Source: Sphingomonadaceae bacterium
GTDB lineage: Bacteria > Pseudomonadota > Alphaproteobacteria > Sphingomonadales > Sphingomonadaceae
NCBI GenBank assembly: GCA_947472735.1
Contig: CANJBY010000004.1
Span: 24,311-88,310, forward strand
Direction of reading: 5' to 3'
Length of the DNA: 64,000 bases
This document shows, in pieces, positions 7,648-20,682 of this stretch (its first letter is position 1; the number at the start of each line of letters is the position of its first letter). The notes under the pieces are model-generated. The model was given only the letters and a program-made list of their open reading frames with translations, did not search any database and had not been told where the DNA came from. Made by a program: the position numbers and the translations under genes.

Positions 7648-8112
7648 TCATGAAACACCTTGATCGACCTTACTGTAAAGCTCTTTGACCGCTTCGATTA
7701 ACAGACCCACCAAGTTGCCGTAGGCAACGGACATAAGCCCATCCTTATTGGTCTGCACCGCTTCGGGCACAATGAGCGCCAACTCCTGGGCGATAAGACC
7801 AACGCCGCGATTGCCTGTGTCGCGCCGACTAAAGGTAACCCCACGGAGTTTCCGGACCCGGTCCAGCGCGCCAGTGATCGTCTCGATGTCAGTCTTCAGG
7901 CGGGCGTCGGAATAGGCAGTAATGTCGCCTGTCGCTGTGATTGAACCCGAGACGGAAATGCTGCCGGTGAAGCTATCACCCGCCTTGTTGGCAGGCGTAA
8001 ATCCGAGTGCACCCGTCACATCGCCTGAGGTCATTGAGGAGCCGGTCGTGACCCGCCCTTTGGCGTCAACCGTGACCTTGAGATAAGTCCCGGCCGTCGC
8101 GCCGCTATCTGT
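7648..8112 (-). pseudogene. Phage tail-fibre C-terminal fragment with S74 chaperone domain
   Basis: The ORF track gives 128 aa from a Met at 8034, but the same frame is protein-like further upstream (TDSGATAGTYLKVTVDAKGR), a typical tail-fibre repeat, to about 8112, where homology-like sequence stops without a start codon. The C-terminal part is the peptidase S74 intramolecular chaperone domain (YSDARLKTDIETI, GVGLIAQEL). The Ser-Lys pair expected for autocleavage is in YSDARLK. The fibre shaft is missing; the gene is truncated and joined to a ParB-like fragment. It is probably not functional unless expressed from an unseen start. Confidence 0.75.
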
Positions 8113-9622: not shown

Positions 9623-9841
9623 TTAGAGCAGCCCCAGCTCATTCAAAATGGTCGCTGCGTCCAGCAGCTGTTCGGTCCGCACCGAAATCTCGATTGTGAC
9701 GCTATCAGCAGTCGCGCTGGCGTAGACGCCGCCCTCGTAAAGCTCCTGCTCCAACGTCTCGATCACCGTCACAATCCGGCTGCGATCAAAAGTCTCAGGC
9801 AGCGTGCGGATCGCGAGGCGGATCGTGCTAGCCGCGCTCAT
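9623..9841 (-). CDS. Hypothetical small protein, 72 aa
   Basis: The ORF track gives a longer frame to 10117, but the upstream part is a shadow of the 120-aa gene. The likely start is ATG 9841, which overlaps that gene's TGA (ATGA). The product (MSAASTIRLAIRTLPETF...LDAATILNELGLL) is a compact alpha/beta protein with no recognised domain. Translational coupling to the 120-aa gene suggests the two act together. Confidence 0.6.
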   Translation of the reverse strand: MSAASTIRLAIRTLPETFDRSRIVTVIETLEQELYEGGVYASATADSVTIEISVRTEQLLDAATILNELGLL

Positions 9842-10200
9842 GCGGCCTGCGCCTTCAGGCTGAAGTAGAGGACGAAGCCCTTCAGGTAGGGCAGCCCCTT
9901 GGGCATCGTGATCTCGCGGGCGGTTTCCCGGTTGATGGTCCATCCCATCCAGCGGGTGATCCCCGCCTCGATGGCTGCGGTCAGGTCGAGCCCCGCATGG
10001 ATCCCGTTGTGGACGTCGTCGGCGAAGTGACGGCCGTGGCGACTGTCGAGAAAATCCCGAACCCCTTCGGCAGTGCCTTCGGTCGCTGCGAGCACCGCCG
10101 GGAAGGCAATCGCCCAAGCCGCATCGGCATCTGCGAAGGCGTCGCTGGTGCCGTAGAAGCCCCAGGCTTCATTGGCGGTTGGCAGGGTCGAGTTGGTCAT
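9838..10200 (-). CDS. Conserved hypothetical protein of plasmids and mobile elements
   Basis: A 120-aa protein with NEAWGFYGTSD, DFLDSRHGRHFADDV, RWMGWTINRETAREI and GLPYLKGFVLYF. I recognise this pattern as a protein often seen on plasmids and integrative elements of alphaproteobacteria, with no assigned function. It is the first gene of a coupled pair. The 186 bp upstream (10201-10386), which hold nothing clear, probably include the promoter. Confidence 0.6.
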   Translation of the reverse strand: MTNSTLPTANEAWGFYGTSDAFADADAAWAIAFPAVLAATEGTAEGVRDFLDSRHGRHFADDVHNGIHAGLDLTAAIEAGITRWMGWTINRETAREITMPKGLPYLKGFVLYFSLKAQAA

Positions 10201-10386
10201 CTGCGTCGCTCCCGTGTTCGTGCAGCGACTACCGCTCTGTTCAGAAACGATAGCAACTCAAATATACGGAATTCTGGGACTTTCTGCTTTCTGACCCCCG
10301 GTTGCTAACTCGCGGGTGCGTGAATTTTGGGCCAGGCGCGGTTTCCCCTCCCAAGGCCCCAGACTTTCGACCCGCCCCCGGGGGGC

Positions 10387-10653
10387 TCAGCCGATCGGCC
10401 AGCCATCCGGGCCGGTGCCGATAGTCCGGCGCAGCCCGAACTGCTCGGCCGTGCGCGTCCGGTGACAGTCAGCACAGAGACAGCGGATGTTGCTGTCATC
10501 GTCGCTGCCACCCTGGGTGAGCGGCACGATGTGGTCCGGTACTGTGGCTTCCCGAACGATGCCCCTGGCAGCGCAGTCCCGGCAGAGCGGCTCGGTCTGT
10601 AATCGTCGCAGACGCTGCGCTACTGCCCGACGTCCCCGTTGCCGTTCAGCCAT
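10387..10653 (-). CDS. HNH endonuclease
   Basis: An 88-aa protein if started at ATG 10653 (MAERQRGRR...); the track's longer form to 10731 adds an unlikely N-terminus. It has a zinc-binding CxxC (LCRDC), the catalytic core DHIVPLTQGG, and NIRCLCADCHR with the second Cys pair and HNH His. Phage HNH proteins of this size usually sit beside the terminase small subunit and help DNA packaging. Here no terminase gene follows, which marks a deletion or loss of the packaging module. Confidence 0.85.
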   Translation of the reverse strand: MAERQRGRRAVAQRLRRLQTEPLCRDCAARGIVREATVPDHIVPLTQGGSDDDSNIRCLCADCHRTRTAEQFGLRRTIGTGPDGWPIG

Positions 10654-10822
10654 GCGCAACGCCTGAAACGAACAACGCCCGGAAGCTGGTGGGCTCCGGG
10701 CGCAGTTCTTAATTCTCGAATTTCGGAACACTATGCCGGATGCCTAGTCCCGTCAACAATAAATCGAACGATACTCCAATAGATTCAGTTTGTTACTTCA
10801 ATTGGCAGGCAAGGTAATCTGG

Positions 10823-11395
10823 TCACGAACTGTCCCTCCGGACCCGGAACAGCCGGCACAACGCATCCAGGCCATGGCCAAGGTTGCGCAGATCTGCTGG
10901 CGACCACTGCAAGGCCTCGGCATCATGGCGCACCACGGCATGTACCAGGACGCTGGGTTTGCGCCCGACAGTACCGGGGGCGTCGCTGTCGGCCGTGCAC
11001 AACATCAGGATTGCACTGGCAGCCTGCCTGCGGACCTTCGCGACCAGCTCCGGATCATGATCCGGCGTGCTGCCCCCGAAGATCCCCTCGTTGATCAACA
11101 GGGCCGTCACCGAGCGCGGCTGGTCCATCGGCAGGCCCATGACCGCGCGGTTGCGGGCCATGACCTCGCCGTAGATCTGACCGGCCGCATATTGCTCGGC
11201 GTCAATCACCCCGGCGAATGCCAACCTTCCCAGCGCCGTGCCCAGGCGATCGTCCTTCGCCTGGGTGGGTGAGACGCCGTAGTGTCGCTGCCGGGCCTCC
11301 AGCACAGTGGCCATGGCATCGCGCTGGCTTTCGTCGCGCGGGCGCTTTCCGCAGGGCAGCCGTCGGCCTGCTTTCCGTTTACGACCTCGTGCCAT
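10823..11395 (-). CDS. Hypothetical basic protein of the phage early module
   Basis: A 190-aa protein from ATG 11395; the track extends it to 11539 through a shadow. The N-terminus is strongly basic (MARGRKRKAGRR), suggesting nucleic-acid binding. The rest is helical with QRDAMATVLEARQRHYGV and DLRNLGHGLDALCRLF. It overlaps the preceding 62-aa gene by 17 bases in another frame. No family is recognised. Confidence 0.6.
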   Translation of the reverse strand: MARGRKRKAGRRLPCGKRPRDESQRDAMATVLEARQRHYGVSPTQAKDDRLGTALGRLAFAGVIDAEQYAAGQIYGEVMARNRAVMGLPMDQPRSVTALLINEGIFGGSTPDHDPELVAKVRRQAASAILMLCTADSDAPGTVGRKPSVLVHAVVRHDAEALQWSPADLRNLGHGLDALCRLFRVRRDSS

Positions 11396-11567
11396 GAGCG
11401 CCTCCGTAGAGCCGTTCGCCGATCGCCCGGATGGCTTCCCGCTCCATGGTGGTGAGCCGCTGGTCGCTGACCGACACCGCGAATATGCCGGTGCGCCAAC
11501 CATCCCGGCGCAGCTGTTCGCCGTCGCGCTGCCCGGCATGGCCGTAGATTTTCGAGATCATGGTCAT
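11379..11567 (-). CDS. Hypothetical small protein, 62 aa
   Basis: It starts at ATG 11567 in a TGATG junction with the upstream DUF6378 gene, with GGAGAT as ribosome-binding site inside that gene's end. The product (MTMISKIYGHAGQRDGEQL...) has an acidic-basic mix and no recognised fold. The coupling to both neighbours supports translation. Confidence 0.55.
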   Translation of the reverse strand: MTMISKIYGHAGQRDGEQLRRDGWRTGIFAVSVSDQRLTTMEREAIRAIGERLYGGAHGTRS

Positions 11568-11821
11568 CAGCCGATCTCCCGCAGCAGGGCGGCATAGCCG
11601 ATGACATCGACCACGCTGTCAGCATGGCGCGGATCGTAGGTCAGCCGGGTGAGCTTGAGGTCGATCATGCACAGCGCGACCTGGGCCGGTGTCACCGGTG
11701 TCCCGAGCGTGATCGACCAGCGAGCGGCAATCGCCCGGAACTGTTCGGCCGGATCGCCGTAATCGTCGCGGCGTTCTTCCAGCACCTTGGCGGTGTGGCC
11801 GAGAATGGACCAGCTGGTCAT
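11567..11821 (-). CDS. DUF6378 family protein (small MazG-like helical protein)
   Basis: An 84-aa product from ATG 11821, whose start overlaps the stop of the RuvC-like gene (ATGA). The sequence ERRDDYGDPAEQFRAIA...MIDLKLTRLTYDP...DSVVDVIGYAAL is typical of small phage proteins annotated as DUF6378, related in appearance to all-alpha nucleotide pyrophosphohydrolases. A role in nucleotide metabolism during phage replication is plausible but not shown. Confidence 0.7.
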   Translation of the reverse strand: MTSWSILGHTAKVLEERRDDYGDPAEQFRAIAARWSITLGTPVTPAQVALCMIDLKLTRLTYDPRHADSVVDVIGYAALLREIG

Positions 11822-12357
11822 CGAACACCTCCACGGGTCGCGATGGCCCAGCACAGGATGGCGATGGCATCGGCCTCGTTGTCATCGACCGGGGAGAACC
11901 CAACCTTGCGGACAGCATCGATGACGGCCGCCTTGTCGGCATTGCCCTTGCCGGTGATGAACCGTTTGATCGTGCCCACCGGCACGCCCTGGTAGGCGAC
12001 CAGGTGTTCCTCGCACCAGGCGGTCAGCACGGCCAGCAGCCCGCCATATACATGCGCGGCGTCGGTGCCGACGTGGCGGCGCACCTCCTCGAAGTAGACC
12101 GCCTCGATCGGCCCGGCATCGATGTCGAGCTGTTCGAGCCAGCGGCGGAAGCGCAGGAACCGCATCCCACCGCCATCGAAGCGGGTGTGCTTGAACGATG
12201 CGGTGCCGCTCGAGATGAAGTCGTCTCCGGTCTTCAGCGCCCAGCCGGTGCTGGTACCGAGGTCGAGGGCGAGCATGGCGCCGCGCATGATTGTGGGCCG
12301 CACAACAGCCGGCGGGGTTGCACTGCGCACCGGCGCAGGCAGAGTCAGAACATCCAT
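11818..12357 (-). CDS. RuvC-like Holliday-junction nuclease
   Basis: A 179-aa protein from ATG 12357, which has a good GGAGAA site; the track start at 12426 is less likely. RNase H-fold acidic residues can be placed: the first strand Asp in MLALDLGTSTGWAL, the Glu in VYFEEVRRH and the C-terminal Asp/Asp in DDNEADAIAIL. The spacing matches phage-type RuvC resolvases that cut branched replication or recombination intermediates. It lies within the early, replication-type gene run. Confidence 0.8.
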   Translation of the reverse strand: MDVLTLPAPVRSATPPAVVRPTIMRGAMLALDLGTSTGWALKTGDDFISSGTASFKHTRFDGGGMRFLRFRRWLEQLDIDAGPIEAVYFEEVRRHVGTDAAHVYGGLLAVLTAWCEEHLVAYQGVPVGTIKRFITGKGNADKAAVIDAVRKVGFSPVDDNEADAIAILCWAIATRGGVR

Positions 12358-12472
12358 GATGATTCTCCAATGGGGATGGATCGTGGTGCGGACGGCGGTG
12401 GTTTTGTGCTTGGCGGTACGGACCACCGTCGTCCGGTCTGGGGTGATGGGTTTCAGGACACCGGCGCCTCCA

Positions 12473-13015
12473 TCAGAACGGGATGTCCGAGAGCTCGTCG
12501 TCTAGCTCCTGGAGGGTTGTCTTGTTGGGCCGGACACTGATCACCTGCGCGCCGGGGAACGCGTCCTTGGCAGCAGCGAGAATCGGGTGACAGCGGATGA
12601 CGTTGGCGATCTCGTCGAGGGCCCAGACCTGGGCTTCGCGTCCGTGCCGCTGGGCCCGGCCGGTATCGCGCAGGTCCCGCACAAGGATGACGAGACCTTG
12701 CTCGGTCTCGAACTCCCACTGGTCGACCGGCAGCGGTTCGCCCTTGGCTTCGCGGGCCAGCTGATCGAGTTTGTCGTATGCCCGCAGCATCGCCTCACCG
12801 TGCTGGCGCACGAGCTTGAGGTTGAACTCCCACACCGCGGCGTTGAACAGCTTGTGCTGGGCCTGGAACCTCTCGGCCCAATCGATCGGCACCAGCATGG
12901 GCAAGCGCCCGATGCCCCAGCGTTCGTCCATCTCACGACCGCGCTGGTCGACGCAGTTGATGATGACCTGCATGTCGCTGATCTGACCATGCCGGGTCGG
13001 TGGCGCGCCTTTCAT
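12473..13015 (-). CDS. Phage early protein with an SSB-like DIPF C-terminal tip
   Basis: A 180-aa protein of unknown fold (PMLVPIDWAERFQAQHKLFNAA, EQGLVILVRDLRD). Its last residues are LDDELSDIPF, nearly identical to the acidic tip (DDDIPF) by which bacterial SSB recruits partner proteins. It is the first gene downstream of the primase-helicase, preceded by the TTCCGC repeat array. The tail suggests it binds SSB partners of the host or competes with SSB; the rest of the protein has no recognised domain. Confidence 0.65.
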   Translation of the reverse strand: MKGAPPTRHGQISDMQVIINCVDQRGREMDERWGIGRLPMLVPIDWAERFQAQHKLFNAAVWEFNLKLVRQHGEAMLRAYDKLDQLAREAKGEPLPVDQWEFETEQGLVILVRDLRDTGRAQRHGREAQVWALDEIANVIRCHPILAAAKDAFPGAQVISVRPNKTTLQELDDELSDIPF

Positions 13016-13070
13016 GCGCCCCTCCTTTCTTTGCTGGAAATTTGAGGCTGACGCAGAGCAAAAAGCGGCT

Positions 13071-13192
13071 GCGGAAGCCCTAGGGGGTATGGGGGAACAT
13101 AAGTGCAGCCTTCCGCATGCTTCCGCCCGTGCTTCCGCACCCTTCCGCAGGTGCTTCCGCAGACGAAAAACCTTGCTTCCGCAGGCTTCCGC
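13071..13192. repeat. Array of seven phased CTTCCGC repeats plus one inverted copy
   Basis: CTTCCGC starts at 13110, 13120, 13132, 13142, 13154, 13176 and 13186, i.e. spacings of 10, 12, 10, 12, 22 and 10, so one unit per helical turn. An inverted copy (GCGGAAG) lies at 13071-13077. The spacing is not a multiple of three and the array sits between the primase-helicase stop and the next start, so it is non-coding. It resembles iterons or a cooperative operator. Confidence 0.75.
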
Positions 13193-13199
13193 AAAGCCC

Positions 13200-15224
13200 T
13201 CATCGGCCGCTCTCCAGGTACTTGAGGACCCTGAGACCAGAGGCCCGGTTCATGGATTTTCCGCCTTCGGTGGCCATGTATCCGCGCTGCTGCCACTGGC
13301 TGATGCAGGACAGGGCTTCACGGGCTGACACCCCGTAGGTGTCGGTGATCATGTCGATGATGTAGCGGCCACGACGCTTGGCCTGGGGGAACGCGGACCA
13401 GGGCGTGCCAGCGTGCCACTGCTCGTCGACAGACTTGAAGATCTCGTGGATCTGGTGCCAGCTGAGGCCCTTCTGCTGGATGGGGATGGCGGCTGGTCCT
13501 ACGACCGGCACCAGCGTGCTCTGTTCAGGGCCAAAGCCGGTGGTCAGGTCGACAACCTCCATGGTGAAATGGACGTCGTCGATTTCCTCGCCGTCTTTCT
13601 GCTTCTCGACCGACAGGACCGTGCGGTCCTCGTCCTTGGCCACCCGGATGGCGGTGTCGCAACCACCGAGCAGCACGGTCGAACCGCGCATGCCGCGATC
13701 CACATCCTTGCCCGAGTGGTGGATGCCAACGACGGTGCCGCCGCAGTGGTTCTGGATCTGCGTGCAGGCATCGATGAACAGCGACATCGCTTCCTGGCTG
13801 TTCTCGTCCTGCCCGGGGATCGAACGCGACACGGTATCGATGACGACCATGCCGATCTCGAAGTCGACCTCGGCGCGGACCTGGTCGATCGTCCGCTTCA
13901 GCTTCTCGACGCTGGCGGGATCGAGCATGTGCACCGCGACCGGCAGCAGCTTGAACGGCGCATCCACGGCCTCGAGGCCATGCTTCTTGCGCCAGCCCTT
14001 GATGCGCTGGCCGATACCGAACCGTCCTTCACCGGCGATGTAGAGGACGCCTGTCTGACGAACGGCCCGTCCGTGCCAGTCGAGGCCGTAGGCAGTCCGC
14101 AGCACCATATCGAGGGCGAGGAAGGTCTTGTGCTCGCCGGGCTTGCCATAGAGCAGCGCCAGCCCATGCTCCGGGATCAGGCCATCGATCCGCCACTGCG
14201 GCGGCGGCATGTTGACGATCTCGTCCAGACTGAGAGTCTCGAAAACTTCGGGACCGGCAGCGGCGTCGACCTCGAAGATGGCCCGGACCGCCTCCAGGCC
14301 GGAGATCGCGGCCATGTCGTTGAAATCGGTGCCGAGGCTGGCAACCGGAAACGTGGGGAATACCGCCGGACAACGCAGGATGCGGGCAGCGGCCATCGCG
14401 GCGTCGCGGCCGACATTCTTCGCCTTGCCCCGGTCATCGTCGCCGGCCACGATCCAGGACGCGCCGGGATAAGCGGCAGCAAGGCGCTCGGCGACTTTGG
14501 TGAGATTGCCGGAATTGAACGCCACGACGACGGTGCGGCCGGTGGCTTCATGCAGCGACGCGCCAGTGGCGAACCCTTCGCAGACCAGCACTGGAGCGCG
14601 GGTCTCAGCAATCGGCGGCCCGATGACGAACATCGCGCCGGCAACCGGAAGGTCGGCCTCGAACAGCTTGTGCCCGGTTCGATCGATCGACTGCAGCGAG
14701 CCCAGCGCGCCGTCGGTGTCGAACAGCGGTACCAGGACATGCTCGCGGTCGAGCCTGGTGCCGTTCGGCCCGATGCCCTTGGCAGTCAAATATGGATGGG
14801 AAGAATAGCCGGGATTGGCCGCTTCCCAGCGCAGCTGCATCTGCTCGGCAGCTGACTTGCGCCGCTCCGCCTGCTCGGCCTCAAAGCGCGCCTGACGGGC
14901 CTGGAGTTCGGCGACGCGATCGGCCGACATGACGGGGAACGTTCCGCCTGTCAGGCGCTCGGCCGCAGCCCGGATATCAAGGCCTTCCTGGTGCTGCAGA
15001 AAATCGAAGAGGTCGCCATGCGCGCCGCAGCCAAAGCAATGATACCGCTGGTCCTGCGGGTAGACGGTGAACGAAGGCGTGCGTTCCATGTGGAAGGGGC
15101 ACAGGCCGACGAGCTGGTGGCCACGGCGCTTGAGGGCAACGTGCTGGCTGACGGTCTCGGCCAGCGGATACTGGTCCTTGATCGCCTCGATATCGATGCT
15201 GCCGGTTTCAATGCGACGCGCCAT
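13200..15224 (-). CDS. Primase-helicase (CHC2 zinc finger, TOPRIM, RepA-like ATPase)
   Basis: About 674 aa from ATG 15224; the track's GTG start at 15299 would run the reading frame through the DnaA-box-like repeats. Domains in order: DnaG-type zinc finger (GLCPFHMERTPSF, YHCFGCGAHGDLFDF), TOPRIM (VLVCEGFATGASL, WIVAGDDDRGK), then a RecA/RepA-like ATPase with Walker A ALLYGKPGEHKTF and Walker B-like MVVIDTVSRS. The protein would lay primers and unwind DNA for element replication. Its presence argues that the element once replicated on its own. Confidence 0.88.
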   Translation of the reverse strand: MARRIETGSIDIEAIKDQYPLAETVSQHVALKRRGHQLVGLCPFHMERTPSFTVYPQDQRYHCFGCGAHGDLFDFLQHQEGLDIRAAAERLTGGTFPVMSADRVAELQARQARFEAEQAERRKSAAEQMQLRWEAANPGYSSHPYLTAKGIGPNGTRLDREHVLVPLFDTDGALGSLQSIDRTGHKLFEADLPVAGAMFVIGPPIAETRAPVLVCEGFATGASLHEATGRTVVVAFNSGNLTKVAERLAAAYPGASWIVAGDDDRGKAKNVGRDAAMAAARILRCPAVFPTFPVASLGTDFNDMAAISGLEAVRAIFEVDAAAGPEVFETLSLDEIVNMPPPQWRIDGLIPEHGLALLYGKPGEHKTFLALDMVLRTAYGLDWHGRAVRQTGVLYIAGEGRFGIGQRIKGWRKKHGLEAVDAPFKLLPVAVHMLDPASVEKLKRTIDQVRAEVDFEIGMVVIDTVSRSIPGQDENSQEAMSLFIDACTQIQNHCGGTVVGIHHSGKDVDRGMRGSTVLLGGCDTAIRVAKDEDRTVLSVEKQKDGEEIDDVHFTMEVVDLTTGFGPEQSTLVPVVGPAAIPIQQKGLSWHQIHEIFKSVDEQWHAGTPWSAFPQAKRRGRYIIDMITDTYGVSAREALSCISQWQQRGYMATEGGKSMNRASGLRVLKYLESGR

Positions 15225-15248
15225 GGCGGCCAGGCTCGCTTTCCTGAA

Positions 15249-15281
15249 TGTGGATAAGATGCGGGATAAGTCTGGGATAAG
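15249..15281. repeat. Three phased GGATAA repeats including a perfect DnaA box
   Basis: TGTGGATAA (15249-15257) is the exact consensus DnaA box, TTATCCACA on the minus strand. Two more copies with CGGGATAAG and TGGGATAAG follow, with GGATAA at 15252, 15264 and 15275, 12 and 11 bp apart. The set lies just upstream of the primase-helicase start, and could act as a DnaA-dependent origin element or as a promoter operator. Confidence 0.65.
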
Positions 15282-15323
15282 CGGTGGATGCCGGGCCACC
15301 GCAGCAGCCCGGCATCTGACCGA

Positions 15324-15959
15324 TCAGAACAGCGGCGCCCCTGCCGGCGCGGGTGCCGAGGCTGGCGCAGGGGGCGGCATGTGTGCGGCCGGCGCTGCAG
15401 GAATTGGCGCAGGAGCCGGTGCCGCTGCCGTCGGCGCAGCCGCCGCCGCACCACCGCCGAGCGCTTCAGGCCGGTCGGTCCAGCCGATGATCTCGAACTG
15501 CGGCTGGTAGTTGGTGCCGTGCTTGTTGCCGATCGCGGTCACACCCACACAGCGCACCACGGGAAGCTGGCCGGTGGCGGTCTCGGGCGCCGCCATCCAG
15601 GCATCGTAGAGCGCGTTCATCGACTTGATCACGATGCTGGCGGTCGAGGTGAACTCGCGCAGCCCCAGCAGGTTCTTCTCGGAATAGAGGTCGAGCTGGA
15701 AGCCGCGCTTGAAGTCCTGCCCGGGATTGGGCGCGGACTCGGTGAACGACGGATCGATGACCTTTTCCGGCGCCACATTCGTGGTGAACTTGAACCAGCC
15801 GGTCTTGAGACTGGTCATGTCGAACACCGCCGTCATGTCGGTAACCTCGAACATCGGCTCGTCCTTGCCATCGCGCTTGGTATACCAGCGGCCGGCCTTG
15901 GCATTGAAGCCGACGTAGACCTTGAACACCTCGTCAGAGGTGACGTTCATGAAACCCAT
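15324..15959 (-). CDS. Phage protein with SSB-like architecture
   Basis: A 211-aa protein. Residues 1-165 look like a compact beta-rich domain (VFKVYVGFNAKAGRWYTK, TGWFKFTTN, GFQLDLYSEKNLL). They are followed by a long Ala/Pro linker and a short hydrophobic end (GAPLF). This globular-domain plus disordered-tail layout, and the position between the exonuclease and the primase-helicase, suggest an ssDNA-binding or recombination-mediator protein. No family is recognised with certainty. Confidence 0.6.
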   Translation of the reverse strand: MGFMNVTSDEVFKVYVGFNAKAGRWYTKRDGKDEPMFEVTDMTAVFDMTSLKTGWFKFTTNVAPEKVIDPSFTESAPNPGQDFKRGFQLDLYSEKNLLGLREFTSTASIVIKSMNALYDAWMAAPETATGQLPVVRCVGVTAIGNKHGTNYQPQFEIIGWTDRPEALGGGAAAAAPTAAAPAPAPIPAAPAAHMPPPAPASAPAPAGAPLF

Positions 15960-15994
15960 TGTCCTGTTTCCTTGTTGCTTGGAGGTGCCGCGTG

Positions 15995-16783
15995 TCAGGC
16001 CTGCGGCGCGGCCTCGAGGGGTTGGCCCCAGATCTCTTCGGCCGCCGCGCGGGCAGCCGGGTCGTTCCAGTAGAAGCTGTCGAGATCGGGCGAGAGCGAC
16101 CGGGTCAGTTCCGCGCCGTCGTCCGACAGCGACAGGAACCGCTCGATCGACCGGGCAATGCTGACCACCCGATCGAGGTGGCGGCGCGGATCCTCCAGCC
16201 GGTAGACGCCCATCTTCTGGGGCGTGACATAGGCGAAGCGGATCTCGGCGTTGCCGTGGGCGGCATGGTAGATCACGCCCTGGCGGGCATGCGGATCAGA
16301 GATCTTCGAGGACAGGCGTGCCTGGGTTTTGAGGTCGACGATGATCCCATGCGCGGGATACCAGAAGTCGAGCCAGCCGATGAACGGCACCGGCACGCCG
16401 GCCAGATGGACCTCGATCCGGTGCTGGCGGTTCTCGCCGGCCGCCTCGGGCACGCCGTATTGCCGCAGTTCGGCAAGCGCGATGGCGACAGCCGGCGCGA
16501 TGTTGGCGCGTTCCTTCTGAACCGCCGGATCAGCGGACAGGGCCGTCAGCTGGTTGAACCGGGCAAGCGCAGCTTCCTGGCAGGCCTCGACCGGTGCGGC
16601 TGGATCGAACAGGCCCATCTCGACGCCGGCCTCGATGGCGGTGCCGCGGTGGGCAGCAGGGCCGACCATCGACCTGCGCCCCATCAGCTTCTGCATCGCC
16701 CACATCGCAGGCTGCGCCACGAACAGGTTGATCGACGAGGCCGAGAGGTGGTCGAGCCCATGACGCTCAAAAGCGTTCGCCAT
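15995..16783 (-). CDS. PD-(D/E)XK nuclease (RecB/Cas4-like exonuclease)
   Basis: A 262-aa protein from ATG 16783, which shares TGATG with the upstream stop. The catalytic core is readable: helix with HRGTAIEAGVE, Asp in IGWLDFWYP, and the DLKT (D-x-K) motif in GIIVDLKTQ followed by the QGVIYHAAHGN helix typical of RecB-like nucleases. Phage members trim double-stranded ends for strand annealing, which fits the adjacent SSB-like gene. No Cas genes or CRISPR repeats are present, so Cas4 itself is unlikely. Confidence 0.8.
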   Translation of the reverse strand: MANAFERHGLDHLSASSINLFVAQPAMWAMQKLMGRRSMVGPAAHRGTAIEAGVEMGLFDPAAPVEACQEAALARFNQLTALSADPAVQKERANIAPAVAIALAELRQYGVPEAAGENRQHRIEVHLAGVPVPFIGWLDFWYPAHGIIVDLKTQARLSSKISDPHARQGVIYHAAHGNAEIRFAYVTPQKMGVYRLEDPRRHLDRVVSIARSIERFLSLSDDGAELTRSLSPDLDSFYWNDPAARAAAEEIWGQPLEAAPQA

Positions 16784-17124
16784 CACGCCGCCTCCGCCAG
16801 TTCGATGTCAGCCAGCGGATTGCGCGCACCCGGTGCCCGTGGCCGGGCGATCGCGACATAGCTGTAGGTGTCGGGACCGAGCCGTTCCTGGATCAGGTGG
16901 ACACAGCCCTTGTCCGCCGCCCACCGCGCACGGGCCGCCAGGCGCTCGAGGGCAGCACGCTGCTTTTCGTCCAGGCGGCGCTTCGGACCGCGATCGAGAT
17001 CCTTGGCGAGGAACCCGCGGTGATATTCGTAGCGGTCACCGCCTGCGGCATCGGCCAGCCAGGCACAAAACAGCAGTTCGTGCCCGATCTGTCGGCGCGC
17101 ATTTGTTCGTGATATGTTCTGCAT
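16783..17124 (-). CDS. Hypothetical protein, 113 aa
   Basis: The real start is ATG 17124 (MQNISRTNARRQIGHELL...) with AGAGGGG before it; the track's upstream extension is a shadow. The protein has a basic central helix (DRGPKRRLDEKQRAALERLAARARW) that could contact DNA. It starts in a TAATG overlap with the small Cro-like gene and ends in a TGATG overlap with the exonuclease gene. No family recognised. Confidence 0.6.
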   Translation of the reverse strand: MQNISRTNARRQIGHELLFCAWLADAAGGDRYEYHRGFLAKDLDRGPKRRLDEKQRAALERLAARARWAADKGCVHLIQERLGPDTYSYVAIARPRAPGARNPLADIELAEAA

Positions 17125-17360
17125 TATACCCCTCTGCAAGATTCGGTGGTGGAGCGGTGGGAGGCGCGGCCGCGCGGGGCCGGCTGGTAGTCTTCCATGA
17201 AGGCCCGGATGCGTGCTTCGGTGGCGGGCCACAGCCGGCGACCGGCGCGCAGCTGGGCCACGAGCTTCCAGTCGTTGGTGGCGCGGCGGCCGAAATAGCT
17301 CTCGGCCATCTTGTGGGCCTTGAGGAAGGAATCGATCTCTTGAACGATGGGATGCGTCAT
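17124..17360 (-). CDS. Small DNA-binding (Cro-like) protein
   Basis: A 78-aa product from ATG 17360, behind AAGGGTG. The core (MAESYFGRRATNDWKLVAQLRAG and RRLWPATEARIRAFM) has the pattern of small phage/element regulators in which a helix-turn-helix of the SxFG-RxA type is followed by a second helix. It is the first gene of the leftward early operon and is divergent from the S24 repressor, the usual position of a Cro-type regulator. Confidence 0.65.
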   Translation of the reverse strand: MTHPIVQEIDSFLKAHKMAESYFGRRATNDWKLVAQLRAGRRLWPATEARIRAFMEDYQPAPRGRASHRSTTESCRGV

Positions 17361-17455
17361 ACACCCTTTATTCCGGGATGAATCCAACTGCACAAGTAGG
17401 GCTGTGTCCCACAAATAAGATTGCGGGAGGCATCCCACAGTGTTACCCACAGCCG
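17361..17455. promoter_or_regulatory. Divergent control region of the CI/Cro-like switch
   Basis: The 95-bp interval between the divergent regulator genes contains three direct copies of a CCCACA core: TCCCACA at 17407 and 17433 and ACCCACA at 17445. The first lies in a small palindrome TGTG-TCC-CACA. Read on the minus strand these are TGTGGGA/T sites, plausible operators for the S24 repressor. Promoters for both directions should lie here. Confidence 0.55.
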
Positions 17456-18181
17456 ATGACCCAGACCCCCGCCTTCAACATCGCGTTCCTGCGCAAGCTC
17501 CTCGAGGATGCGACCGCGCCAGACGCGAAGTGGAACTCGCGCTCGCTCTCGATGGCGGCCACAGCCGGGAAGAACCCCTACCTCGTGCGCGACATCATCA
17601 AGGGCAAAAGCACCAACCCGACGCTCGATACGCTGGTGGGCCTAGCGAGGGCGCTGGAGATGGATATCTCGCAGATGATCCCGGCCGCCACCACGATCAT
17701 GCACCGGGTCGGTGGCTCGCAGCCCTTCGAGACGCTCGAGGTCGTGGGCGCGGTTGCCGCCGGCGTCTGGCGCGAGGAGACCACCTGGGGCGCAGAAGAC
17801 CGTTATTCCATCGAGGTGGGCCCCAATCCCTTCCCGGGCAGTGAGCGCTTTGCTCTGCGCATGGAAGGCTATTCGATGGACAAGATCATCCCGCCGGGAT
17901 CGGATCTCGAATGCCTGCGGGTGACCTATGGCTACGTCGAGCCGCAGCCTGGCGATATCGTCATCGTCCAGCGCGACAAGCATGACCTCCACGAGCTCAC
18001 CTGCAAGCGGCTCGACCACGATGGGCAGAACTTCATCCTGCGTGGCGAGTCGACCCGGGCGGAGTTCCAGGAGCCGATAGTGATCGGCCGTCCCGATGAA
18101 AACAGCATCAGCGACGACGGCATCACGATCGTCGCCATTGTCCTGCGCGCACACCAGAGTCTCTACACCCGCCGGCGGTGA
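17456..18181 (+). CDS. CI-like repressor with S24 (LexA-type) peptidase domain
   Basis: A 241-aa protein from ATG 17456. The N-terminal helix-turn-helix region spans about residues 10-75 (GKNPYLVRDIIKGKSTNPTL). The C-terminal S24 domain has a probable autocleavage site VAAG, the catalytic Ser in MEGYSMDKIIPPGS and the Lys in ELTCKRL. It should hold the leftward early operon off and be inactivated by RecA filaments after DNA damage. The intact catalytic pair suggests the switch could still work. The track's earlier start at 17378 would run through the operators. Confidence 0.88.
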   Translation: MTQTPAFNIAFLRKLLEDATAPDAKWNSRSLSMAATAGKNPYLVRDIIKGKSTNPTLDTLVGLARALEMDISQMIPAATTIMHRVGGSQPFETLEVVGAVAAGVWREETTWGAEDRYSIEVGPNPFPGSERFALRMEGYSMDKIIPPGSDLECLRVTYGYVEPQPGDIVIVQRDKHDLHELTCKRLDHDGQNFILRGESTRAEFQEPIVIGRPDENSISDDGITIVAIVLRAHQSLYTRRR

Positions 18182-18221
18182 CAGGACCCCTTGTCAAGAG
18201 GGTTTGTGACACCAGACCGTT

Positions 18222-18250
18222 TTGACATGGGATATGTCCATCATTATTCC
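18222..18250 (+). promoter_or_regulatory. Promoter of the recombinase operon with overlapping operator
   Basis: TTGACA (18222-18227) and TATTCC (18245-18250) are 17 bp apart, a good sigma-70 layout. An inverted repeat GACAT-GGGAT-ATGTC (18224-18238) covers the -35 box and half the spacer, so a repressor bound there would block transcription of the small ORF, DUF2924 and recombinase genes. Confidence 0.55.
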
Positions 18251-18261
18251 TGAGCGAATAC

Positions 18262-18294
18262 CCGGGAGCGAACCAGCGGTTCAGCGGCTCCCGG
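18262..18294 (+). other. Leader hairpin upstream of the recombinase operon
   Basis: CCGGGAGC pairs perfectly with GCTCCCGG, and inside the loop GAAC-CAGC-GGTTC forms a second stem. There is no T run after it, so it is not a simple terminator. It would lie in the 5' leader of the mRNA, 20 bases before the first ATG, and may modulate translation or message stability. Confidence 0.5.
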
Positions 18295-18315
18295 CCCTTA
18301 AGCCAGGAATGCCCG

Positions 18316-18531
18316 ATGATCGCCCAGAGCCACCCCAACGCCCTCGCGCCCGACCAGATGACGCCCGATGCCCGGATCGCCGAGTTGGGGCGCATCGTCG
18401 CCGCCGGCGTGCTGCGGCTGCGCGAACAGTCCAGTTCTATATCTGCCCACGGTGGAGATAGTTCTCTCGCTATCTCGCCCACCAGGAGCGTCAGTCGTCC
18501 CCGGGCAAAAGCCCGGAATGGAGGACGATAA
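18316..18531 (+). CDS. Small conserved ORF preceding DUF2924
   Basis: A 71-aa protein (TPDARIAELGRIVAAGVLRLRE, then a Ser-rich tail). Its stop overlaps the next start (TAATG), and a short protein of this kind regularly stands before DUF2924-recombinase pairs in alphaproteobacteria. The first half looks like one amphipathic helix; function unknown. AGGAATG in front of the ATG could serve as ribosome-binding site. Confidence 0.6.
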   Translation: MIAQSHPNALAPDQMTPDARIAELGRIVAAGVLRLREQSSSISAHGGDSSLAISPTRSVSRPRAKARNGGR

Positions 18532-18992
18532 TGCACAAACAGGATGACAATGCGCTGGTGCTGGCCAGGCTGGCGGCGCTGAAAGACATGTCGGTCAAAC
18601 AGCTGAAGGCCGAATGGGCAAAGCTGTTCGAGACAGAGGCGCCCAACAACAGCCGGTCGTTCCTCGAGCAGCGGCTGGCCTACCGGATCCAGGAGCTGAC
18701 GTTTGGCGGCCTGTCGAAGCCGGCGCGCCAGCTGCTCGACGCGCTGGCGGACGAGGTTGAGGGCAAGAAGGTCAGGAAATCGGTGATTTCCGACCCGCGC
18801 AATCCGGTGATCGGCACGCGCCTCGTGCGCGAATGGAACGGGGCGGAGCACGTCATCACCGTATTGAAGGACGGGTTCGACTGGCAGGGGCGCCGCTACA
18901 AATCGCTGTCGGCCATCGCACGGGACATCACCGGCACGCAGTGGAACGGCTATCGTTTCTTTGGCCTGCGGGAACGGAAGGACGCAGCATGA
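18531..18992 (+). CDS. DUF2924 protein
   Basis: A 153-aa protein with the family's features: an N-terminal helical part (LKDMSVKQLKAEWAKLF, SRSFLEQRLAYRIQEL) and a C-terminal beta part (GTRLVREWNGAEHVITVLKDG, YKSLSAIARDITGTQWNGYRFFGL). The latter resembles a DNA-binding fold that reads KSLSAIARxITG. Genes of this family almost always sit directly before a serine recombinase, with which it overlaps here by ATGA. It is probably a recombination accessory factor; the biochemistry is not established as far as I know. Confidence 0.85.
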   Translation: MHKQDDNALVLARLAALKDMSVKQLKAEWAKLFETEAPNNSRSFLEQRLAYRIQELTFGGLSKPARQLLDALADEVEGKKVRKSVISDPRNPVIGTRLVREWNGAEHVITVLKDGFDWQGRRYKSLSAIARDITGTQWNGYRFFGLRERKDAA

Positions 18993-20308
18993 CCGATACG
19001 ACACCCCGGCGGCGCCTGCGCTGCGCCGTCTACACCCGCAAATCCAGCGAGGAAGGGTTGGACATGGAGTTCAACAGCCTCGACGCCCAGCGCGAGTCCT
19101 GCGAGGCCTATGTTGCCAGCCAGCGCGCCGAAGGCTGGGTCTGCATGCGCGAACGCTACGACGACGGCGGGTATTCTGGCGGCTCGCTCGAACGCCCCGG
19201 TCTCAAGGCCCTGCTGGAAGATGTCGAGGCCGGCCTGGTCGACGTCATCGTCGTCTACAAGATCGACCGCCTGTCACGCTCGCTGATGGACTTCGCCAAG
19301 CTGGTCGAGGCCTTCGACCGCAACAACGTGACGTTCGTGTCGGTGACGCAGGCGTTCAATACCACGACCAGCATGGGCCGGCTGACGCTCAACATCCTGC
19401 TGTCCTTCGCCCAGTTCGAACGCGAGGTCACCGGCGAACGGATCCGTGACAAGTTCGCGGCCAGCCGCGCCAAGGGCATGTGGATGGGCGGGTTCGTACC
19501 GATGGGGTACGACGTCGTCGACCGGAAGCTGGTGATCAACGAAGCCGAGGCCGCTGCGGTCCGCCATATGTTCCAGAGGTTTGTCGAGCTGGGATCGGCG
19601 ACGCTGCTGACCCGGGAACTGGTGGCAAGCGGCACCCTCAACAAGCGCGGCAAACCGATCGACAAGGGGTTCCTGTACAAGCTGCTGCGCAACCGGCTCT
19701 ATATCGGCGAAGCGGTGCACAAGGGCACCAGCTATCCCGGCGAGCATCAGGCCATCATTGACGAGCCGCTGTGGGATCAGGTCCATGCCATCCTGCAGGA
19801 GAGCCCGCGCCAGCGCGCTGCCAACACCCGCACCCAGACGCCAGCGTTGCTCAAGGGGCTCATCTTCACCGATCGGGGTATCGCCATGACGCCGACGGTC
19901 ACCAAGAAGGGCAGCCGCCACTACCGCTACTACACCTCGATGGACGCCATCCGGAACCGGGCGTGTGAGGGCCGCGACAGCTTTGTCCGGCTCAATGCCG
20001 GCATGGTCGAGGGCGCAGTGGTACAGCACATCCGGTCACTGCTGCGCACGCCAGAAATCGCTGCACGGGCGATGGAAGCGACCCGCCGAACGGCACCGGA
20101 CATCGACGAGCAGGATGTGGTCACCGCCTTGTCGGGCTTTGACGGTCTCTGGGAATCGCTGTTCCCGGCCGAGCAGGCCCGGATCGCCCGGCTGCTGATC
20201 GAGCGGGTCACGGTCAGCGCCGATGGCCTTGCGGTCGACCTGCGCACTGAAGGCCTCGGATCGGTCATCCGGGAAATGGTCACGCCTAAACAGGAGCTGG
20301 CAGCATGA
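18989..20308 (+). CDS. Serine recombinase (resolvase/invertase-type integrase)
   Basis: A 439-aa protein starting at ATG 18989 inside the DUF2924 stop; the track's 18833 start is a shadow extension. The N-terminal catalytic domain has the nucleophile Ser in CAVYTRKSS and the YKIDRLSRSLMDF and FAQFEREVTGERIRDK signatures. The recombinase domain follows (GKPIDKGFLYKLLRNRLYIGE). The zinc-ribbon segment lacks the usual Cys pairs (GLIFTDRGIAMTPTV). This is the only integrase-type enzyme in the element and the likely agent of its integration or excision. Confidence 0.9.
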   Translation: MTDTTPRRRLRCAVYTRKSSEEGLDMEFNSLDAQRESCEAYVASQRAEGWVCMRERYDDGGYSGGSLERPGLKALLEDVEAGLVDVIVVYKIDRLSRSLMDFAKLVEAFDRNNVTFVSVTQAFNTTTSMGRLTLNILLSFAQFEREVTGERIRDKFAASRAKGMWMGGFVPMGYDVVDRKLVINEAEAAAVRHMFQRFVELGSATLLTRELVASGTLNKRGKPIDKGFLYKLLRNRLYIGEAVHKGTSYPGEHQAIIDEPLWDQVHAILQESPRQRAANTRTQTPALLKGLIFTDRGIAMTPTVTKKGSRHYRYYTSMDAIRNRACEGRDSFVRLNAGMVEGAVVQHIRSLLRTPEIAARAMEATRRTAPDIDEQDVVTALSGFDGLWESLFPAEQARIARLLIERVTVSADGLAVDLRTEGLGSVIREMVTPKQELAA

Positions 20309-20682
20309 GCGCGCCGACCACCATGCGGGTGTTCATCCCGCTGACCATCCGCAAGCGCAACGGGCGGCCGAAGATCGTGCCGCCGGCCGACGTGGTGCCG
20401 GAAACCGGCGGGGTAGATCCGCATGTGCTGAAGGCGATCGCCAAGGCGTGGAGCTGGCGGCGGAAGCTGGAGATCGGGGAAGCGGCAACCCTCGCGGACG
20501 TCGCCACGGCTGAGGGTGTGACACCCGCCTATGCCGGCCGGATGCTGAAATTGACCTATTTGGCGCCGCCCGTGCTGGAGAAACTACTGATCGCGCGCGT
20601 CCCGCCAGCGGTGTCGGTGAAGGAACTGGCAGTAGCAGCCGAGTTGCCGTGGGCAGATCAGGAGGCGTCGGTATTTGGCTGA
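20305..20682 (+). CDS. Recombinase-linked small HTH-like protein
   Basis: A 125-aa protein starting at ATG 20305, overlapping the recombinase stop. The first part (VFIPLTIRKRNGRPKIVPP) is basic. The middle resembles a helix-turn-helix (ATLADVATAEGVTPAYAGRMLKLTYLAPPVLEKLL), a segment commonly found in a protein encoded right after DUF2924-linked recombinases. It may be a recombination directionality or regulatory factor; this is inference from order and overlap. Confidence 0.65.
   Translation: MSAPTTMRVFIPLTIRKRNGRPKIVPPADVVPETGGVDPHVLKAIAKAWSWRRKLEIGEAATLADVATAEGVTPAYAGRMLKLTYLAPPVLEKLLIARVPPAVSVKELAVAAELPWADQEASVFG

Follow-up and report, generated by a model that had tools for sequence, protein, structure and literature searches.

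The stretch of DNA analysed here (64,000 nucleotides from a Sphingomonadaceae bacterium, hereinafter the window) carries an array of short direct repeats between two genes of the minus strand. The first of these, P0001 (13200..15299), codes for a primase-helicase of 699 residues that combines a CHC2 zinc finger (residues 37–117), a Toprim domain (237–331) and a RepA-type helicase domain of the AAA_25 family (363–532; Pfam E = 1.1e-35). The second, P0002 (12473..13015), lies downstream of the array as its conserved neighbour and codes for a protein of 180 residues with an SSB-like tail, DDELSDIPF. Both neighbours are as the sequence-only reading had described them, with the stop of P0001 at 13200 and the start of P0002 at 13015. 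The genes nearby code for a RuvC-like resolvase, a PD-(D/E)XK nuclease, an HNH endonuclease, an S24 repressor and a serine integrase, and relatives of the locus sit in Sphingomonadales genomes. The part of a temperate Sphingomonadales phage that holds the array is its early region, covering 9838–20682 of the window. Among the ORFs scanned around the array, no structural genes were recognised beyond a small tail-fibre-like ORF (7648–8034), so the prophage may be a remnant; no attachment-site repeats longer than 12 bp flank the prophage region. Neither P0001 nor P0002 matches a Rep family, and the scan of neighbouring genes turned up no Rep initiator.

The array (13109..13193, minus strand) starts 7 bp past the stop of P0001 and comprises seven copies of a unit that reads TGCGGAAGc on the coding strand of the adjoining genes. 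Read on the plus strand, it gives seven exact copies of CTTCCGC in a single orientation (13110–13116, 13120–13126, 13132–13138, 13142–13148, 13154–13160, 13176–13182 and 13186–13192), whose start-to-start spacings of 10/12/10/12/22/10 bp are precisely those first reported for it. What is exceptional is the clustering of the heptamer and not its abundance: over the whole window CTTCCGC occurs 23 times against 17.7 expected, which is no significant excess, while the array is the only place in the 64 kb where any 7-mer has at least five non-overlapping copies inside 100 bp. In 60 simulated windows (first-order Markov), the corresponding maximum per 100 bp was three copies in 56 cases and four in the other four. 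A function of the array as a hairpin or RNA was considered and rejected, as the strand folds no better than its shuffles (z = -0.33 with DNA parameters).

Three further elements accompany the direct copies. An inverted copy lies on the plus strand at 13071–13077 (feature bounds 13070..13077), separated by 32 bp from the first direct copy; it had likewise been anticipated, the originally proposed range of 13071–13192 including it. Between the array and this inverted copy lies a C-rich element, CCCCCATACCCCC (13083..13095, minus strand), which perhaps has a role in opening or priming. The double-length gap inside the array (13162..13174, minus strand) is occupied by AAGGTTTTTCGTC, the array's only T-rich stretch; a comparable T-rich gap (CGGTTTTGCGTC and alike) is found at the same position in relatives, and we regard it as a possible opening site. 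Where the array ends, a single weak terminator-like site was detected on the minus strand.

In Pfam, P0001 matches AAA_25, CHC2 and Toprim only, with neither DUF927 nor D5/Primase_Cterm, and its last ~100 residues fall outside any Pfam family. The C-terminal ~90 of these (about residues 610–699; 13203..13472, minus strand) probably constitute an unannotated winged-helix domain. In the AlphaFold model, the structural elements follow one another as in a winged helix, and a Foldseek search against the PDB returned LexA and other winged-helix DNA-binding proteins among the best matches, these being weak (best E 0.075). For P0002, searches of Pfam, PHROGs and NCBIfam gave no family match and the AlphaFold model is of low confidence (pLDDT 64); homologues with 46–98% identity are present in 30 viral loci, and it might possibly be a replication accessory protein.

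Relatives of the locus were retrieved with P0002 and the helicase half of P0001 as separate protein queries, and hence the array itself had no part in their selection; single proteins served for the collection scans, an alignment being too divergent for that purpose. Of 30 distinct family members, 27 (the window included) carry an array at the same place; the window apart, these are 26 distinct relatives found by protein alone. The geometry is all but invariant: the copy offsets of 0, 10, 32/33, 44, 54, 66 and 76 are kept in all 27, one of them being off by 1 bp. In contrast to this near-constant geometry, the letters of the repeat change, and they do so in concert in every copy. Two types are distinguished, namely TGCGGAAG in three members (the window among them) and GTCGGAAG in the other 24, some copies of the latter type reading GTCGCAA. 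The inverted copy, which stands 32–33 bp beyond the array in all 27 members of these two types, changes its letters together with the direct copies. The C-rich element is likewise present in all 27, in the general form CCCCC[A]TACCCCC, and also occurs in part of the more distant array-bearing phages. As a separate observation, the extended form CCCCCATACCCCC(TAGGG), at 13078–13095 of the window, recurs in the corresponding position in L153, L157, L036, L038 and others.

Comparison of the encoded proteins indicates that only the C-terminal ~90 residues of the helicase track the repeat type. For this domain, identity is 58% between types as against 91–94% within them, the ranges being without overlap. 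Mean pairwise identity between types is 77% for the primase, 83% for the helicase core and 87% for P0002, roughly the same as within types, and these three do not follow the repeat. Natural exchanges are also seen. In L152, which is otherwise nearly isogenic with the window, a block corresponding to 13034–14307 differs, so that the helicase half and the array are both replaced. More generally, L152, L170, L179 and L004 keep the primase half (70–99% identity) along with an unrelated helicase half (~25%) and different repeats. In L155, a helicase of the L152 type is followed by other repeats, directly before an intact old GTCGGAA array (L155:3245–3600), and this represents a recombination joint at the border of gene and array.

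The association extends to other phages. A scan of IMG/VR on DNA only, for three phased copies of CTTCCGC, yielded at least 120 loci. Among the matches listed, HMMs of the C-terminal domain detected it at 41 of the 65 loci with non-triplet spacing versus one of the 55 with triplet spacing, a count that is partly circular because the first HMM was seeded with sequences from part of those loci; the protein-only scans are free of this circularity. The remaining 24 non-triplet loci (again among the matches listed) have no domain match, in some cases owing to a short contig. The window array differs from the triplet-spaced GCGGAAG runs in IMG/VR, most of which are contained in long ORFs and have no such domain, and a reading of the array as a coding repeat was rejected. 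The domain-bearing IMG/VR proteins vary in their N-terminal parts. At 35 of 101 distinct domain-bearing loci, at least three phased exact 7-mers stand directly past the stop codon; among control windows, the figure is 31 of 2415. For the L046-type helicase, many relatives have no detected array directly past the stop, and in some of them it lies further downstream. The unit itself varies in other phages (GCGGAGA, ACGGAAG and CCGGAAG), and remote homologues of the domain, at ~25% identity, retain CGGAAG-like repeats in unrelated phages. Rhizobium phage RHph_N65 has GCGGAGA arrays behind its helicase gene. In plasmid p1 of Caenibius sp. WL, a circular phage-plasmid of 38 kb with no replicon type listed, the helicase gene, three clusters of TGCGGAA repeats and a P0002-like gene (to judge by the gene start) follow one another in the same order. 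The detrended minimum of GC skew, taken as a proxy for the start of replication, lies 0.85 kb from the array in p1 and far from it in RHph_N65.

Given these observations, we consider it highly probable that the array is the iteron part of a replication origin of a temperate Sphingomonadales phage and that its reader is the predicted winged-helix domain at the C-terminus of the upstream primase-helicase. Direct recognition of the iterons by the helicase tail is supported by the winged-helix model and matches together with the coupling of this domain to the array. We infer that several initiator molecules would occupy the seven phased sites, which lie on one face of the helix, perhaps along with the inverted copy, and that, once bound, they would open the nearby DNA. 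The RepA-type helicase could then be loaded directly at the origin, following which the fused CHC2-Toprim primase would prime synthesis.

The sequence-only reading had left the choice between origin iterons and a cooperative operator; comparison across the relatives lends good support to the former and makes the latter less likely. The occurrence of such an array in the corresponding position on a circular phage-plasmid also speaks, indirectly, for an origin. As an operator, the repeats would be bound by the helicase (as autoregulation) or by a phage regulator and would govern how P0002 and the genes that follow it are transcribed. The position of the array just upstream of P0002 is what such a site would occupy, and phased sites suit cooperative repressors, a function with which an origin role could coexist. 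Against this, a consensus scan found no sigma-70-like promoter on the gene strand between 12900 and 13400, the array tracks the helicase tail rather than a regulator, and in unrelated phages whose downstream genes differ it is still found behind the helicase gene. Moreover, the array type switches and P0002 does not, and we hold the operator to be improbable. The same constancy bears on P0002 as the binder of the iterons, a role in which the 180-residue protein had also been suggested. It is conserved beside the array, including (to judge by the start of its sequence) in Caenibius p1; however, it shows no split by repeat type, and the window protein shares 98% identity with that of L152 or L153 despite their other repeats, which leaves that role very unlikely.

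A further consideration is that the covariation could be one of linkage, with domain and array exchanged by recombination as a block in the absence of any mutual recognition. Phage mosaicism is common, L155 retains an old array beside a swapped helicase, and linkage could yield part of the covariation because domain and array adjoin. As the whole explanation we find it very unlikely, for the letters change under a fixed geometry, P0002 is uncoupled although it adjoins the array on its far side, and the CGGAAG-like repeats persist in unrelated phages beside domain homologues of only ~25% identity. Additionally, unrelated 7-bp repeats occupy this position behind some helicases in which no copy of the domain is detectable.

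Several known systems come close to the reading as origin iterons bound by the helicase tail. The Rep proteins of iteron plasmids are not known to be helicases, and their iterons measure ~17–22 bp, as opposed to a unit of 7–8 bp at a pitch of 10–12 bp in the window. In P4, the α protein with ori/crr unites primase, helicase and origin recognition in one protein acting at short repeats, its helicase and iterons being, as far as known, of a different family and sequence from those of P0001 and its array. Iteron plasmids have phased direct repeats to which an initiator binds (PMC4980987); the window array has phased direct repeats too, and its proposed initiator would likewise bind them, probably via a winged helix. 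P4 α is a primase-helicase fusion (PMC7145576); P0001 similarly has primase and helicase domains, and it is the covariation that points to origin binding. A matching arrangement is offered by the SaPI Rep protein, which uses its C-terminal domain to read iterons that immediately follow its gene (PMC7581432). SaPI Rep and SCCmec Cch2 share with the P0001 system an initiator helicase (predicted in the case of P0001), short iterons directly downstream of its gene and a primase that is fused or adjacent. However, they are helicases of the DUF927 or D5/Primase_Cterm type (PMC7581432), whereas P0001 couples an AAA_25 helicase (RepA/RecA fold) to a CHC2-Toprim primase in Alphaproteobacteria; the likeness lies in the arrangement. 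By analogy, P0001 and its array may work like SaPI Rep and its ori on another helicase family. That family is shared with the RepA of RSF1010, a hexameric AAA_25-like helicase, which is loaded at oriV after a separate protein, RepC, has opened it (PMC8965321); in P0001, by contrast, the DNA reader appears to be fused to the helicase. Among open-access papers, we found none describing GCGGAAG iterons.

We further posit, with about even confidence, that these loci exemplify a widespread and as yet unnamed class of phage modules, in which RepA/AAA_25 helicases recognise the origin through a winged helix at their own C-terminus and are self-loading at 7-bp iterons that directly follow the gene, with no separate initiator. 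The helicase-tail-iteron cassette would be exchanged to switch origin specificity, and the primase domains would be shuffled independently. The findings suggest that helicases of the RSF1010 RepA type, for which RSF1010 itself needs a separate initiator, can carry an origin-binding domain that has escaped annotation. They provide a candidate origin for many temperate phages of diverse kinds, and for a phage-plasmid, whose records, where examined, have none annotated, and a rule for searching, namely 7-bp repeats at a pitch of 10–12 bp just past the stop codon of an AAA_25 helicase. With the natural cassette swaps, one of which is in a nearly isogenic relative of the window, origin specificity becomes open to testing by domain exchange.

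Some related arrangements were noted in passing. Behind four AAA_25 helicases with no detectable copy of the domain, the 7-bp repeats are CGCAACA in L221 (from 9750), TGGTTCA in L224 (after 4111), GGGGACA in L225 (after 4132) and TTCCCAA in L220 (after 12933); four others examined have no such repeats past the stop. L048 (1515–1700) and L123 (around 699), both devoid of a domain match, contain 13–17 copies of GCGGAAG at a strict spacing of 11 bp. Finally, a conserved AT-rich spacer, TAAGTCATTGAAATCATTG, absent from the window array, separates two or three clusters of iterons past the helicase stop in L046, L067, L182, L212, L216 and others. It occurs with different iterons and holds the motif YAANNNNTTG, which resembles the IHF core; its 58 distinct instances correspond to 0.31 per kb past the stop versus 0.009 upstream.
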